Below, one piece after another: positions 15,129 through 26,548 of a DNA stretch of 64,000 bases. The DNA is from Rhodospirillales bacterium. Lineage in GTDB: Bacteria > Pseudomonadota > Alphaproteobacteria > Rhodospirillales > Casp-alpha2. The translations under genes and the position numbers were made by a program. Positions within the stretch are counted from its first letter, which is position 1. Every line of letters starts with the position of its first letter. A model generated the notes under the pieces. That model saw only the letters and a program-made list of their open reading frames with translations, was not told the DNA's origin and searched no databases. The stretch covers positions 248,001-312,000 of the forward strand of contig JAEPMA010000001.1 of assembly GCA_017644185.1 (NCBI GenBank). The letters run 5' to 3'.

Positions 15129-16262
15129 TTAATTCGCGGGGGCCTGGGCTTTGTCCTTCGTGAACATCTCGGGCATCGCCTGTTTGAAGGCGTCACGCGC
15201 CTTGATGGCTTTCGGGTAGCCCTCTTCTGCAGCGCGGTTGATCCAGTCGAAGGCGGTCTTAAGATCCTGGGCGACCCCTTTTCCCTCATAATAAAGGAAC
15301 CCCAAGTTGTACTGCGCCTGGGTATGGCCCGCGCTTGCGGCACGTTCGAACCACTTGGCGGCGTTGGCGAAGTCCTGTCCACCAGTCTGGCCAGTGTAGT
15401 TCATGATACCCAGATTGTACTGTGCGCCGACATGGCCCGCTTCGGCTGCTTTGAGGAAATGCTGGGCCGCCTTGCCGAAATTCTGTTCGACTCCGTCACC
15501 GTTATAGAAACGTAGTCCCTGCTGATAGTCGGCTTCGCCCGGCCGTGCTTCTTCTACGACCGGCGGCGGTGGGGGCGCGTCGGCGGCTGGCACGTCTGTG
15601 CCCGGGGGCAGCGCCGCCTGCTCGGTTTGCGGCGCGGACAACGGTTGTTCGCTGACGTTCTCAACCGGCTGTGCGTCGGGCGCACCTTCCTGTGCGACCT
15701 GGCCGTATCCAAGTGCGGACTTCACTTCCTCGACCGGGGGCGCGGGTGAGGTGGTCAGCGGCTCCGCGGTACCAGGGGGCTGGGTCATGGCCGGTTCCGT
15801 GTTCTCGGTCATAGCGGTGGCCGGCACCTGGCTTTCCGGCATGGGCGCCACTGCATTGTCGGGCGTCGGCTTGGCGGCTGGCGCTTCCGCTGCAGCTGAT
15901 TCCGTATGTGTGGGTACGGGTTCTACTTCGGTTTCCGGAGCCGACCGGCGCTCTTCAGAACTGGCGGGCGCGCGTCTGATGTCTTCCGGTGGCGGCGGAA
16001 TGCGCATGACCACGCGAGGTGTCCGGTCGGTCGGGGAGAAATTGAGAACCTCGTGAATGGAGGTGCGAACCCAGTAAATGAAACTCTCCGATTTCGAAGA
16101 GACGGTATCGTAGACACCGTGCTTGATTCCGAGCAGCGTTTCCGCCGCCCCGCCGGTCGTGTTTTCGATGGTTTCGTCGTCGATGACCAGAACGGCAACG
16201 AACGTCAGGGCGCAAAGTCCCAGAATACTCAGGATCAAGTACTTGGCGATTTTCTCGATCAC
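15129..16262 (-). CDS. Membrane-anchored Sel1-repeat (SLR/TPR-like) protein
   Basis: 377 aa from a GTG at 16260-16262. One N-terminal membrane helix (YLILSILGLCALTFVAVLVI) is followed by a long Pro/Ala/Glu-rich disordered stretch at about 85-260. Then come three clear Sel1 repeats (YQQGLRFYNGDGVEQNFGKA, AQYNLGIMNYTGQTGGQ, AQYNLGFLYYEGKGVAQD) and part of a fourth. Sel1 proteins are scaffolds in envelope or signalling complexes. The topology suggests the repeats face the periplasm. It follows, in the same direction, the barrel gene's promoter side, but co-transcription is not evident. Confidence 0.85.
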   Translation of the reverse strand: MIEKIAKYLILSILGLCALTFVAVLVIDDETIENTTGGAAETLLGIKHGVYDTVSSKSESFIYWVRTSIHEVLNFSPTDRTPRVVMRIPPPPEDIRRAPASSEERRSAPETEVEPVPTHTESAAAEAPAAKPTPDNAVAPMPESQVPATAMTENTEPAMTQPPGTAEPLTTSPAPPVEEVKSALGYGQVAQEGAPDAQPVENVSEQPLSAPQTEQAALPPGTDVPAADAPPPPPVVEEARPGEADYQQGLRFYNGDGVEQNFGKAAQHFLKAAEAGHVGAQYNLGIMNYTGQTGGQDFANAAKWFERAASAGHTQAQYNLGFLYYEGKGVAQDLKTAFDWINRAAEEGYPKAIKARDAFKQAMPEMFTKDKAQAPAN

Positions 16263-17181: not shown

Positions 17182-19488
17182 GTGCCCTTTCAACGTGCAC
17201 GAGTGGAGTTGAGACACTTGGCTCTTGAGGACGACAAGCGAACCCGGAAACTGCGTAGCGAGGCGGAGGACATCCTCCGCTTTCGGGACTATGCCGATGC
17301 GGATGCAGATTGGTTCTGGGAACTCGATCCGAATTTCCGTTTCGCGATCGTGTCTATGCGCCACGAAGGACGTTCGTCGGTCGACGAATTCGATCTGTTG
17401 GGTAAGACCCCGTGGGAGTTCGCCGACGCGGATCCGGACCGAGACCATGAATGGGCGGCGTTCGTAGACAAGCTGCAGCGCCGCGAACCTTTCCGGCACT
17501 TTAGAATTTCACTCCGTCATGGCGGGGGCGGGTACGTCTACTGGCGGCTGAGCGGCAAGCCGGTCCTCGGTCATGATGGGCGGTTTTTGGGATATCGCGG
17601 GGTTGCCACCGATGAAACCGTCGAGGCGATCCGCCGTCAGCATCAGGAAGTGTTGTCCGCCGACTATCAAGTGGCGTTGGAAACGATCTCTGAAGGTGTC
17701 GCCTATTTCGACGAGAGAAACCGGCTGTCTTTCACCAACCCGGCGTTCCGAAGCCTGGTCCCGGTGCCGACGACAATGTTTCAGGTGGGGACCGGGTTCG
17801 CCGATCTGATGAACAGCATCGCACCGCTGATATCCGATGATCGGCGCCGCGCATCACAGCTGCGCCGGACGCCCGGGCGCGGCCTGATCGATTGGCAGTT
17901 CGGCGACGGGCGTTGCCTGACCGGCGAGATACGGCCGTTGCCGTCGGGCCGGCATATCGTGGTGGTGCATGAAGCGATGGGGGCCGCCGAGCGGAAACAG
18001 GAACGCGAAGGTCTTTATTATGACGAGTTGGCGATGTCGGAGCAGCCATTCTGGGTGCATGTCGACGGGCGTATCGTTTTCATAAATCAGGCGGCCGCCG
18101 ACATTTTCGACGGCGAGATCGACACCATCTTGGGCCGTCAGGTTTGGGACCTGATCGAGCCGACCGAGCGTGAGCGGCTCGTACAGTTTGATCAGGATCG
18201 CCGGGCCGGGATCGAGGCGCCGGATTCGTATCTCACCACCGGTCTGCGCGAAGACGGTGAACCCGTGAACTTGGAGTTCCATGTGCATGTCGGTGAATGG
18301 GAGGGACGGCGCGCCGTGCAGGTGTTCGTGCAGGATAGGACCGCCGAGCAACAGGCACGAGACGCACTGGTGGAAAGCGAGCAGAAATACCGGAATCTGA
18401 TCAATGGTTCGATTCAGGGGATGTTCGTCCACCGCGACTGGCGCATTCTGTACGCGAACGATACCGCTGCCGAGATCTTCGGCTACAGCGTCGACGACTT
18501 CGTCGGCCGCAACGTGATGGATCTGGTGGCACCCGACGAGCGTGCCGTGATGGCGGATATCCGCCGCCGCCGTCTGGCCGGTGACGATGATGTTCCCGAA
18601 CGCTATGAGTTTTCGGGCTTGTGCGCAGATGGGTCCAAGGTGGCCGTCGAGATTTTCTCCAGGCTTGTCGAATGGGATGGCGGCATGGCGATCCAGGCGA
18701 CGTTGATGGATATAACCGGACGAAAGGCGACAGAGCGTAACTTGCTGCGTGCCAAGGAGGCCGCTGAGCACGCCAACCGGACCAAGACCGAATTCCTTGG
18801 CAATATGTCGCACGAACTGCGAACACCCTTGAACGCGATTATCGGCTTTTCGCAGTTGATCCGCGACAAGATCATGGGGGATATCAATCCGAACTATGTG
18901 GATTACGCGGGCTCGATCCATGCGTCTGGACTGCATCTGTTGGATGTCGTGAACGACCTGCTAGATGTCGCCTCTATCGAAAGCGGCAATCTCACGCTGA
19001 ACGAGGATGACGTCGAGATCGCCGACATCATCCGTTCCTGCGAGCGGATGTTGAGAGCGCGGGCGCAGAAGGCGGAACTGCTGATTTCGGTCGATGTTGA
19101 GGCGGGGCCGTTTCAACTCCGAGGTGACGCCCGTCGGTTGAAACAGATTCTGATCAACCTGATCAACAATTCGATCAAGTTCAGCCGATCCGGCGGTCAT
19201 ATCGTCGTAAAGGCATTTCTCAATCCGGATGGGGCGCCGGTGCTTTCGGTCAAAGATTCCGGTATCGGTATTTCCCCCGAAGATCAGAAAGTGATCTTCG
19301 ACGCTTTTACGCGCGTCGACTCGTCGTTCGTCACGGAACGTGAGGGGACGGGCCTGGGCTTGCCGCTCGTCAATGCGTTGACAGAATTGCATGGCGGGCG
19401 GGTCGAACTCGAAAGTGCGGTCGGGGTCGGGACGAAAATCTCTGTCATATTGCCCCAAGAACGCCTGATCCGAGCCGGGGTTGATTGA
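17182..19488 (+). CDS. Multi-PAS soluble sensor histidine kinase
   Basis: 768 aa with no membrane segment, so a cytoplasmic sensor. Four PAS-like domains lie at about 40-150, 160-265, 283-390 and 398-515. Only the latter two match the PAS fold well (VHVDGRIVFINQAAADIF; VHRDWRILYANDTAAEIFGY). The dimerisation helix carries the phospho-accepting His544 in GNMSHELRTPLNAIIGFSQL. The ATPase domain has ILINLINNSIKFS (N box), DSGIGIS (G1) and GTGLGLPLV (G2), all intact. GTG 17182 is the longest start; TTG 17218 has a better ribosome site (GGAG 9 bases before). No response regulator is adjacent, so the partner is unknown. Confidence 0.9.
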   Translation: MPFQRARVELRHLALEDDKRTRKLRSEAEDILRFRDYADADADWFWELDPNFRFAIVSMRHEGRSSVDEFDLLGKTPWEFADADPDRDHEWAAFVDKLQRREPFRHFRISLRHGGGGYVYWRLSGKPVLGHDGRFLGYRGVATDETVEAIRRQHQEVLSADYQVALETISEGVAYFDERNRLSFTNPAFRSLVPVPTTMFQVGTGFADLMNSIAPLISDDRRRASQLRRTPGRGLIDWQFGDGRCLTGEIRPLPSGRHIVVVHEAMGAAERKQEREGLYYDELAMSEQPFWVHVDGRIVFINQAAADIFDGEIDTILGRQVWDLIEPTERERLVQFDQDRRAGIEAPDSYLTTGLREDGEPVNLEFHVHVGEWEGRRAVQVFVQDRTAEQQARDALVESEQKYRNLINGSIQGMFVHRDWRILYANDTAAEIFGYSVDDFVGRNVMDLVAPDERAVMADIRRRRLAGDDDVPERYEFSGLCADGSKVAVEIFSRLVEWDGGMAIQATLMDITGRKATERNLLRAKEAAEHANRTKTEFLGNMSHELRTPLNAIIGFSQLIRDKIMGDINPNYVDYAGSIHASGLHLLDVVNDLLDVASIESGNLTLNEDDVEIADIIRSCERMLRARAQKAELLISVDVEAGPFQLRGDARRLKQILINLINNSIKFSRSGGHIVVKAFLNPDGAPVLSVKDSGIGISPEDQKVIFDAFTRVDSSFVTEREGTGLGLPLVNALTELHGGRVELESAVGVGTKISVILPQERLIRAGVD

Positions 19489-23164: not shown

Positions 23165-24772
23165 ATGGCGACGACGATTGAGAACCTCAATCTGGAAGAG
23201 GGCAAGAGCGAGGCGCTCCGCGCCGTCCTTGCCGGCATTTCCGAATCGACGGCATCTGACGGCGGCCCACGCTACTCGGAAAAAGTCTGCCGGGAACTCG
23301 CGCGTATTGTGGTTTGCCGCGCGTACGCCAAACCTATTTTGGAACTTTCGCACCTGATCATCGCCGCCGGTGGCCGTGACGGGCGATACGAGAACATCTT
23401 CTGGGGTGTCGAGCGGGCAAGTGCCGGTGAGTTCCGCCGCGCGTTCATGGCACTACAGAATGCCGGGTCCGGTGTCCTCGTGTCCGAAGGGGGCGTGCGC
23501 CACGACGACGGTGGTGACGGGTTCCAGATATCCTACAACCGGATGCCGTTACTGGCGGCGTTGCTGGAATTCATGATCATGACGGTCGGCTATGCCGAAA
23601 TCGACGCCATGACAGGCGCATTGCGGCGGGGAGGTGCGTCCGGGGACGCGGTTCTCGATGCCGCACGTGCCCTGCAGCGAGGCCTCTATGCGTATCTTAA
23701 AGATCACCTTCCCCCCGTGCAGCGGCAGCGCCGGGAGCATCATTTCTTGAGTTATGTCGATGCGCATGCCGGCAATCGAACCGGTGCGGACGCGATCAAT
23801 GATGGGGTCGTGCTGGCGTACTGGCGAGCGTTCGCCGATACGGATGATGTGGATGCGAAGACGTTCCGTGTGGTTTACGACACGGCCCGGCGTCTGATCG
23901 GTGCGCTCGATGCTGCGGCGGATCGCCTGTCTGGGGCGCATGCCCGCCCAATTGGCACCGACGTTGAGGCGGGCGAGGTCGACCCTGCCGATATGGAGGC
24001 GGTGATCGCGGCCTTGGACGCCGACACGGGGCCGCTGGAGCAGCTTCTGGAAACCTGTGGGGAGCATGTGAAGTTCGTCAACGTGGGGGAGGCGGAAATA
24101 CTCTTCGAACTGCCCCTCGGTGATGCGGCGGCTCGCCGAATTCCCGTTTCCGTGTTGAGGAACGCGGTATTCGGAGCCGTGCAACTTCAATTGACCACCG
24201 CATTACGCCGGGGGCGGGTGCCCGACCTGGAGATGCGAGATACCGGTAGCGGTTATTATTTGGCAAAGCTGGATGAATACGCGGATGTGATCGGGGTGAC
24301 GGAAAAACTGGCGTTAGCCGCCATCTGGCCGCTTTTCGAGGCGGGACGCCCGGAAGCCGTCGATCTCGCGCTCGCACTTGCCCCCGATATCGATTGGGGG
24401 CAACTGGCGCGCGGCATGGAGGAAGAAGGTGGGAATGTCGTATCGCTTGGACGTGTGGAGGCTTTGCGCCAGTTCTTCCAGGTCGTGCCCGACGCGCGTG
24501 GCGACGAGATCGCGGCACTGCTTGCGGAGTCGCGGCGTGCGTGGCGTGGGGTGAATCGTGCCGGTTTCCGAGAAGAAGATGAGAGCCTCGATGTGATGGC
24601 GGAAGCCATTCCGGATGTGCTTCGCCTGATCGCCGCGGTACGGCGAACCCTGGACCGAGACCTGCGGCCCCACGACTGGCCGTCTTATGAAGCATCGGAC
24701 GCCCGGGACTTTGCGGAGATGTTTGGGAAATTGTATGAACTGGACAGGAAGGGGGGGACGGATGCCCGCTGA
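23165..24772 (+). CDS. Unknown 535-aa protein, first gene of a three-gene operon with a Lon-like membrane protein
   Basis: I do not recognise this protein. It has no signal peptide or membrane helix and is mostly alpha-helical by eye, with an acidic middle (DVEAGEVDPADMEAVIAALDAD) and an N-terminal block of about 250 residues containing PLLAALLEFMIMTVGYAEID. A second block from about 305 has FVNVGEAEILFELPLGD and ends in long helices. ATG 23165 is the only sensible start. It overlaps the next gene by 11 bases. A soluble partner or regulator of the membrane-bound third product is inferred only from operon structure. Confidence 0.7.
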   Translation: MATTIENLNLEEGKSEALRAVLAGISESTASDGGPRYSEKVCRELARIVVCRAYAKPILELSHLIIAAGGRDGRYENIFWGVERASAGEFRRAFMALQNAGSGVLVSEGGVRHDDGGDGFQISYNRMPLLAALLEFMIMTVGYAEIDAMTGALRRGGASGDAVLDAARALQRGLYAYLKDHLPPVQRQRREHHFLSYVDAHAGNRTGADAINDGVVLAYWRAFADTDDVDAKTFRVVYDTARRLIGALDAAADRLSGAHARPIGTDVEAGEVDPADMEAVIAALDADTGPLEQLLETCGEHVKFVNVGEAEILFELPLGDAAARRIPVSVLRNAVFGAVQLQLTTALRRGRVPDLEMRDTGSGYYLAKLDEYADVIGVTEKLALAAIWPLFEAGRPEAVDLALALAPDIDWGQLARGMEEEGGNVVSLGRVEALRQFFQVVPDARGDEIAALLAESRRAWRGVNRAGFREEDESLDVMAEAIPDVLRLIAAVRRTLDRDLRPHDWPSYEASDARDFAEMFGKLYELDRKGGTDAR

Positions 24773-25289
24773 CGATCCGGTCAGTGACCTGGCGCTCGCT
24801 GCGCTCGATGCCGACGCCCAGGCACGGGAACTGATGACCCCCGTAACTGCGGCGCGGATTGCGTTTTCCGATCTCTACCGATATGCGACCGATCCGGCTT
24901 TCGAGTTGTCCCCGTCTGCGCAAGCGCTGCTGGAGAGCGATCCAAACGCTGCCGCAGATCTGGAGCGTCTGCTCGCCGCACGGCCGTTCACTTACATGCC
25001 GAGGCAGGCCGCCGCCGCGACATCGGGCCCGGTCCGGCGTGAGACCGATGCGGCCATTCTGACGCTCACGCCCTCACGTGCTGCGCCGGATCAGACGTAT
25101 CTCGTGATCGAACTTGTCGATCCCGGCGCTCCCCCACCCGCCCAACTGTTCGCACGTTCGGCTGATGGTGGATGGACACGAATTCCCCTGGCCAAGTTCG
25201 ACAGTGCGCGCGTCCAGGTCTTACTGGAGACGAACGGTGAAACCGTCGCCGTGCTTTCCGATCCGGAGACGGAGGTTTATCTCCTGTGA
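24762..25289 (+). CDS. Unknown 175-aa protein, second gene of the operon
   Basis: I do not recognise this protein. ATG 24762 is preceded by a GAAGGGGGGGA ribosome site and lies inside the end of the first gene. The N-terminal 80 residues look helical (SDLALAALDADAQARELM). The C-terminal 90 look like a compact beta domain (AAILTLTPSRAAPDQTYLVI, then VQVLLETNGETVAVLSDPET). There are no cysteines and no export signal. The stop codon overlaps the GTG start of the third gene, so stoichiometric expression is likely. Confidence 0.7.
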   Translation: MPADDPVSDLALAALDADAQARELMTPVTAARIAFSDLYRYATDPAFELSPSAQALLESDPNAAADLERLLAARPFTYMPRQAAAATSGPVRRETDAAILTLTPSRAAPDQTYLVIELVDPGAPPPAQLFARSADGGWTRIPLAKFDSARVQVLLETNGETVAVLSDPETEVYLL

Positions 25290-26548
25290 GCGGGGCCGCC
25301 GTTTACATCCTGACGACCGAAGGCCCGGTCGCGATCCAGCGGATCAGCGAGGAGGATCCCTCCATCAACTCCGTGATTTGTCTGGATGGGCTGGCGCAAA
25401 TCCTGCCCATAAGCTCTGCTTACGACGCCTTCGTGCGACGACCCGTCGGCGTGATCGAGCGGATGACCGGGCATGGGTCGTACCGTTTGGACGTGGCGTC
25501 ACGTATCGATGAAGGACGTTCTTGGCAGCTCGCCGCTTACGTCGCGCACGCAGCCAGACTGCAGGCCGGTGGTGGCGACATCGACGTTTATACGACAGGC
25601 GAAGTGGACAGTGATCTTGACGTCCGCCCGGTCGAGCGGGTCGATCTTAAGGTGGATGCGCTGGCTCGCTATCTGTCTGAACAAGAGGCTCAGCCACGAA
25701 AAGCGGTTGTTCTGCTTCCGGAGGGGACGGAACCCGTGCCCGATCAGGTTGGGGGTGTGCCCGTGATCAGGGTCAGAAATGCCGCCGACGCCCTCGCGGC
25801 ATCCGGGATCGCGGCGCCGAAGCCAATGCCGGAAGCAAGTGCGCCCCCGACAGGTACGAAGCCCAGGCGGCATATATCGCCACTCGCCGTGTTGCTCGGT
25901 TCGATCGTAATCGCTGCGGCGTTGTTCTGGATCGGGAGTGATTTCGCGCGTTGGTCCGCACTCACCGAGCAGGGCCGGATCCTTGAACTCGAGCAGGATA
26001 TGACGCGCTCGGAGGATGACGTCTTGGGTGATTGGCGAGCTGAAATGTACCGGAAGTGGCTGACCACGAAACGACCGGAGGAAGATCCCGTGAGTATTGA
26101 AGGCGCGCTTTATCTGGCTGCCGATAGGGAGGCTTGTGCCGTTCCCCCGGCCGTTGAGCGCGTGCCGATGACGCCGATTTACGAGGGTAGCGGGGCTGTC
26201 TGTAAGATCGAAGTGAGGGCTGTCGGAGACATGTCCCGGTATGTGATGATTGGCCGGCTTGCGTACTGGCCGGGCGGACTGGGTTCAGCGGAACGGCCGG
26301 CCCGGGTGATGCGTGGCAGCAAGGAGCCGTCGGGCCGGACATGGGCCTTGGATTTCGATCAATTACCGGTACCGGGGGCGGCGCTCAGGCTGATCGTGAT
26401 CACCGGCCCCGTCGACATAAATGGATCGCAGCCTTGGTACCAGGACCTGTTGTCGACACCTACAGAAGCTGCTGTTTACGAAGCCGCGCGCGCCCGCCTG
26501 GAGCGGCTTGGGTTCCGGGTCAGCGCTATCGACTGGCATCGCGAGTGA
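25286..26548 (+). CDS. Membrane protein with N-terminal Lon-protease-like (S16) fold carrying a Ser/Lys dyad
   Basis: 420 aa from GTG 25286, overlapping the preceding TGA. Residues 1-180 resemble the Lon proteolytic fold without an ATPase domain. Residues 75-82 (DEGRSWQL) align with the Lon DGPSAG serine loop. VYTTGEVDSD (102-110) aligns with its ATGEVD strand. PVERVDLKVDAL (115-126) aligns with the catalytic-Lys helix, and VVLLPEG and GVPVIRVRNAADAL match the closing strands. S79 to K122 is 43 residues, equal to S679 to K722 in E. coli Lon. One membrane helix spans about 200-217. The C-terminal 200 residues should be periplasmic, with two cysteines (C284, C306) that could form a disulfide. 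Activity is not proven; the loop is GRS rather than GPS. Confidence 0.72.
   Translation: MSGAAVYILTTEGPVAIQRISEEDPSINSVICLDGLAQILPISSAYDAFVRRPVGVIERMTGHGSYRLDVASRIDEGRSWQLAAYVAHAARLQAGGGDIDVYTTGEVDSDLDVRPVERVDLKVDALARYLSEQEAQPRKAVVLLPEGTEPVPDQVGGVPVIRVRNAADALAASGIAAPKPMPEASAPPTGTKPRRHISPLAVLLGSIVIAAALFWIGSDFARWSALTEQGRILELEQDMTRSEDDVLGDWRAEMYRKWLTTKRPEEDPVSIEGALYLAADREACAVPPAVERVPMTPIYEGSGAVCKIEVRAVGDMSRYVMIGRLAYWPGGLGSAERPARVMRGSKEPSGRTWALDFDQLPVPGAALRLIVITGPVDINGSQPWYQDLLSTPTEAAVYEAARARLERLGFRVSAIDWHRE

Follow-up and report, generated by a model that had tools for sequence, protein, structure and literature searches.

Lon is the textbook ATP-driven protease, and a Lon-type domain that comes with no ATPase and is attached to a membrane helix raises the question of what such a domain does in the cell. 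A protein of this kind, called LON here, is encoded in the 64,000-nucleotide stretch of Rhodospirillales DNA that we analysed (the window). An earlier note made from this sequence had proposed an ATPase-free Lon-like domain fused to a membrane helix and a periplasmic domain, acting either as a membrane-tethered peptidase or as a pseudo-protease scaffold. The open reading frame and its Lon-like motifs were confirmed on the sequence at the positions given there. The note missed the two partner genes that precede LON (A and B), the larger envelope gene cluster present in relatives, and the precedents for ATPase-free Lon proteins, CalpL and YlbL. We favour, with moderate confidence, the reading that A, B and LON make up a regulated, ATP-independent and site-specific membrane protease, in which a periplasmic cue would switch the Lon domain and cause it to cut A or B. 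The features discussed below are collected in Table 1.

Table 1. Features of the A-B-LON locus, with positions counted from the first letter of the window
Feature	Position	Strand	Remarks
Gene A	23165..24772	+	535 aa; first in module; no clear membrane segment (hydropathy)
Gene B	24762..25289	+	About 175 aa; start codon ATG at 24762, preceded by purine-rich sequence; 11-base overlap with A
LON	25286..26548	+	GTG start, 420 aa, intact ORF; third gene of A-B-LON; 4-base overlap (GTGA) with B
Lon/S16-fold protease domain	25286..25786	+	Residues 1-167 as modelled
Ser79, predicted nucleophile in G-x-S-W-Q	25520..25522	+	Codon TCT; 50/50 homologues; aligns with CalpL residue 152
Lys122, predicted general base	25649..25651	+	Codon AAG; 50/50 homologues; aligns with the LonA catalytic Lys and CalpL residue 193
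Single transmembrane helix, residues 200-218	25883..25939	+	Hydropathy 2.31; Arg/Lys bias
C-terminal domain (Cys284, Cys306), probably periplasmic	25940..26545	+	Cys pair in relatives; C-terminal alignment
Envelope cluster members (in relatives)			SLT transglycosylase-family protein; TPR-like lipoprotein F05; secreted helical proteins F06 and F07; MotA/TolQ/ZorA-like membrane protein F08

A Lon-type fold without an ATPase

The N-terminal domain of LON is assigned to the S16 fold on the strength of a predicted structure and of its Ser/Lys dyad. An AlphaFold2 model of residues 1-167, built from an alignment of 15 relatives, had a mean pLDDT of 91.5 and a pTM of 0.89. When this model was compared with the PDB using Foldseek, it matched the protease domains of LonA, the Lon domain of RadA and the Lon protein of M. 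jannaschii, with E values between 1.4e-06 and 5.3e-06. VIA-align gave Z scores of 13.7 for RadA, 12.9 for M. jannaschii Lon, 12.5 for E. coli Lon, 11.8 for MtaLonC and 11.7 for CalpL, the last over 119 residues with an rmsd of 2.5 and 20% identity. The Lon-like domain claimed in the earlier note is thereby upheld, the predicted fold being that of S16 (Z 11.7-13.7) and not an unrelated one.

A profile-profile comparison of LON with LonA gave an E value of 1.8e-06 and a probability of 89.8, with Lys122 opposite the catalytic Lys. The only match of the LON family profile among PDB sequences was CalpL, at an E value of 0.26 that is weak when taken alone; in this alignment, CalpL residues 152 and 193 stand opposite Ser79 and Lys122. 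The Pfam model Lon_C, against which a profile search had been suggested as a check on the Lon assignment, matched neither LON nor any of the 15 relatives up to an E value of 1. LON lies outside the sequence range of the Lon_C model, which serves for recognition and does not stand for a biological property. No family of Pfam, NCBIfam, PADLOC or PHROGs matched the LON protein above cut-off, leaving it unnamed in all four.

LON shares its fold, its dyad and the spacing of the dyad with the S16 proteases LonA, LonB and MtaLonC. LonA and LonB, however, carry an AAA+ ATPase and LON does not: the Pfam search revealed no AAA+ domain in the 420-residue open reading frame, as the earlier note had also held, and the modelled Lon domain begins at residue 1. 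The solved MtaLonC chains, at about 600 residues, are longer than LON. A Lon-like protease that lacks ATP-powered unfolding has been described (PMC3391209). In our searches of the literature, which covered open-licence papers, we found no description of a protein with the layout of LON. We treat LON as a new family and do not assign it to those of CalpL or YlbL.

Conservation of the predicted catalytic dyad

The motifs that define the putative active site are GRSWQ, which starts at residue 77 of LON, TGEVD, which starts at 104, and ERVDLK, which ends at Lys122. Ser79 and Lys122 are 43 residues apart. LonA proteins from related genomes have exactly this distance between the catalytic Ser (in DGPSAG) and the second Lys of KEK, which confirms the Lon-like spacing that had been pointed out before. 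The stretch from TGE to the Lys is likewise 19 residues long in LON and in these LonA proteins, and aligns without a gap.

A scan of genome contigs with the single LON sequence retrieved two close relatives only. Conservation was counted over 50 homologues that share 18-86% pairwise identity (median 38%). Two loci were left out of the counts: L118, in which the gene is split into two fragments, and L120 (genome G683), which probably encodes an ordinary Lon-family protein (TGSLDQHGNVLPIGGIKQK). Ser79, Trp80, Gly105 and Lys122 are each present in all 50 homologues. Together with Thr10 and Gly77 they make up the six columns, out of 154 counted, that are conserved at 98% or more, so that the dyad residues, predicted beforehand from one sequence, are two of six near-invariant positions. 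Taken with the predicted fold and the profile match to LonA, this makes the resemblance to Lon more than a coincidence. Loss of the dyad among orthologues, which the earlier note had named as a possible objection, was not seen.

This conservation bears on whether the domain cuts at all. RadA and ComM carry Lon domains that are DNA-related and are not known to be peptidases, and the Lon-like domains of RadA/Sms and ComM are among the structural matches of LON (Z 12.0-13.7), so that the fold might serve for binding in LON as well. In LON, however, both dyad residues are invariant, sit in the expected motifs and keep the Lon spacing, and a scaffold need not retain both. Mainly because Ser79 and Lys122 are conserved at a median identity of 38%, we consider it much more likely that LON is an active Ser/Lys peptidase than that it is a pseudo-protease, and regard the scaffold, which had been offered earlier as an alternative, as very improbable. 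Still, peptidase activity of LON should not be taken for granted, since purified YlbL, a membrane Lon-PDZ protein of Bacillus that is likewise ATPase-free and has a Ser/Lys dyad (S234, K279), was inactive in vitro (PMC6051672).

Membrane topology and the C-terminal half

The membrane helix, which would anchor LON in the inner membrane, and the C-terminal domain are present as had been described. In 40 of 49 relatives, Arg and Lys are more frequent ahead of the helix than behind it. At least two Cys residues follow the helix in 47 of the 49, exactly two in 39, and they occur in similar contexts among the relatives (GxxC...LCGLE). The basic residues ahead of the helix and the conserved Cys pair behind it strongly suggest a cytoplasmic Lon domain and a periplasmic, disulfide-stabilised C-terminal half, and lend support to the periplasmic placement made in the earlier note. 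That this half is also sensory is what we infer.

A sequence-level search of the C-terminal half against Pfam gave no match to SAVED or CARF domains, and no PDZ domain was matched in LON. In some relatives the tail contains a DUF4384 domain. LON resembles YlbL in having an ATPase-free Lon domain with a Ser/Lys dyad that is tethered by one transmembrane segment. The arrangement differs, however: in YlbL the helix is N-terminal, a PDZ domain is present and the protease domain is likely extracellular, whereas the Lon domain of LON is N-terminal and predicted to be cytoplasmic.

A conserved module of three genes

LON is the last of three genes whose order, A-B-LON, recurs with short overlaps in the scanned loci across Pseudomonadota. 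In the window the overlaps are of 11 bases (A/B) and 4 bases (B/LON), and in other loci, too, the neighbouring ends mostly overlap. B lies beside LON in 47 of 52 scanned loci and A upstream of B in 46 of 52, the loci without A or B being contig ends or divergent copies. Among 199 genomes of the order that were searched for B, 30 contain it, and all 30 also contain LON. Since order and overlaps are kept and every genome with B also has LON, the pattern implies that A-B-LON is a functional unit, and the products probably form a complex. Between species of the genus, pN/pS ranged from 0.24 to 0.33 for A and from 0.24 to 0.42 over all three genes, with synonymous sites near saturation; by this measure selection on each of the three is purifying.

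Of 248 genomes of the order, 32 had a LON-type match, as did 14 of 289 in a sample of the class and 13 of 299 in a sample of the phylum. Four genomes (G052, G138, G532 and G544) hold two such matches each, with clearly different scores in the last three, which suggests paralogous modules whose inputs or substrates differ. That the module stems from a mobile element or a virus was considered and dropped, as searches of plasmids, phages and viral contigs gave no match. No promoter-like site or coding-strand terminator was found around the module.

Neither A nor B matched a family above cut-off in Pfam, NCBIfam, PADLOC or PHROGs, and profile searches of the PDB with each of them gave matches at chance level only. 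The AlphaFold2 model of B (pLDDT 90.7) consists of N-terminal helices and a C-terminal beta-sandwich. Its resemblance to MATH domains (best VIA Z 6.2) or to a CBM56 (Foldseek E 5.5e-03) was too weak for an assignment, and a match to NA-iREase3 (E 0.08-0.11), obtained with one member only, was judged to be due to chance.

Two soluble-looking proteins strictly coupled to an ATPase-free protease could also be adaptors or chaperones that deliver substrates to it, as such a protease may need adaptors. LON would then be a constitutive quality-control or processing protease of the membrane with no dedicated switch, which would degrade cytoplasmic proteins that are misfolded or close to the membrane and for which the intact Lon fold and dyad would also be suitable. 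General degradation, however, is less natural without an unfoldase, and the conserved domain with the Cys pair, lying beyond the membrane, suggests that an input arrives from that side. The module is also patchy in the order, as counted above, and differs in this from the housekeeping Lon_C family, which is nearly universal. We therefore consider this explanation unlikely, and return to the regulated, site-specific protease.

CalpL as a precedent and a proposed mechanism

The closest solved relative of LON is CalpL, the SAVED-Lon protease of a type III CRISPR system of Sulfurihydrogenibium (PDB 7qda and 8b0r). CalpL has an ATPase-free N-terminal Lon domain that is activated by a C-terminal sensor and cuts the partner protein CalpT (PMC11417357; PMC9704534). 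LON, too, has an N-terminal Lon domain with no ATPase and a further domain C-terminal to it; the two can be aligned at the motif G-x-S-(Y/W)-Q-L, at TGEV and at the catalytic Lys, and both proteins belong to three-component sets. The C-terminal parts differ, in that CalpL senses cyclic tetra-adenylate by its SAVED domain and LON carries a transmembrane helix and a domain with a Cys pair. The partners differ as well: those of CalpL are an anti-sigma and a sigma factor, whereas neither A nor B could be recognised as a sigma or anti-sigma factor, a toxin or an output of another kind. For this reason the parallel covers the protease only.

With CalpL in mind, one may propose how LON would work. 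According to this model, the periplasmic domain would sense either the envelope's state or a partner bound to it, and the signal would be passed on as a change in how LON is assembled across the membrane, which in turn would switch on the cytoplasmic Lon domain. The activated domain would then cleave A or B to a limited extent, or free one from the other, and so release a cytoplasmic output. The scheme follows CalpL by analogy, with a C-terminal sensor, a motor-less N-terminal Lon domain and cleavage of a partner as its putative elements.

The results suggest that LON is an uncharacterised signalling protease spread over several classes of Pseudomonadota. A motor-less family that is sited in the membrane and genetically tied to two partners would extend, outside CRISPR, the idea from CalpL that a Lon domain can be a switchable signalling protease. 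If true, the model would provide a first testable function for three unannotated gene families and the adjoining envelope cluster, and would define a route of signalling from periplasm to cytoplasm that is distinct from DegS/RseP and from two-component systems.

Envelope genes beside the module

In over half of the loci, a cell-envelope gene cluster surrounds the module; whether proteins of the cluster are secreted was judged by eye from their sequences. Near the module, the transglycosylase-family gene was present in 31 of the scanned loci, F05 in 29, F06 and F07 in 28 each and F08 in 25. PF01464 was confirmed on one transglycosylase-family protein of the cluster, and F08 resembles ZorA/MotA weakly (E 4e-4).

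Such company would fit a component of an envelope machine, in which LON anchors and matures a trans-envelope complex of a lytic transglycosylase, a TPR-like lipoprotein, a MotA/TolQ-like membrane protein and secreted helical proteins, proteolysis being a checkpoint of assembly. However, F06 and F08, the two cluster genes for which we searched, are absent from the genome of the window and from a complete congener, both of which have A-B-LON, and in another congener they are far from LON, so that the module can exist without the machine. Because these genes are absent from, or distant in, genomes with the module, A-B-LON is regarded as a separable unit, and we hold it quite improbable that LON is in essence a part of the machine.

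For the regulated protease that we prefer, the signal in species with the larger cluster may come from the envelope proteins encoded next to it; in the genome of the window it would come from elsewhere, since the two marker genes of the cluster are absent there. A wider and more tentative proposal is that the module represents a Pseudomonadota-wide form of signalling, a non-CRISPR counterpart of Calp in which a motor-less Lon protease would relay a periplasmic state to the cytoplasm by cutting a dedicated partner, and which in many species might be the cytoplasmic arm of an energised envelope machine. We see this as possible, at somewhat less than even chances.

The gene neighbourhood offers some further observations. 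A representative envelope cluster is found at L029:4690-16649, with equivalents in L026, L031, L093, L098, L108 and L114; clusters of this type also include a Pro-rich protein and lipoproteins, and most members match no Pfam family. The genes that follow LON in more distant genomes encode a secreted trypsin/V8-like protease and an OmpA-like protein (named by eye) and take the place of the usual cluster; they were seen at L119:5003-6998 and L104:10673-12831, and also close to the module in L125 and L126. A caspase (Peptidase_C14) with an SH3 domain is encoded near the module at L029:1985-3805, and a caspase motif occurs in the fetched stretch of seven loci. In the window, a match to the F16 cluster at 15129-16262 had made a caspase a candidate, but this gene, which lies some 7 kb upstream of the module and is read from the minus strand, encodes a Sel1-repeat protein with no caspase domain. 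A large multi-PAS histidine kinase is encoded at 17182-19488 on the plus strand.
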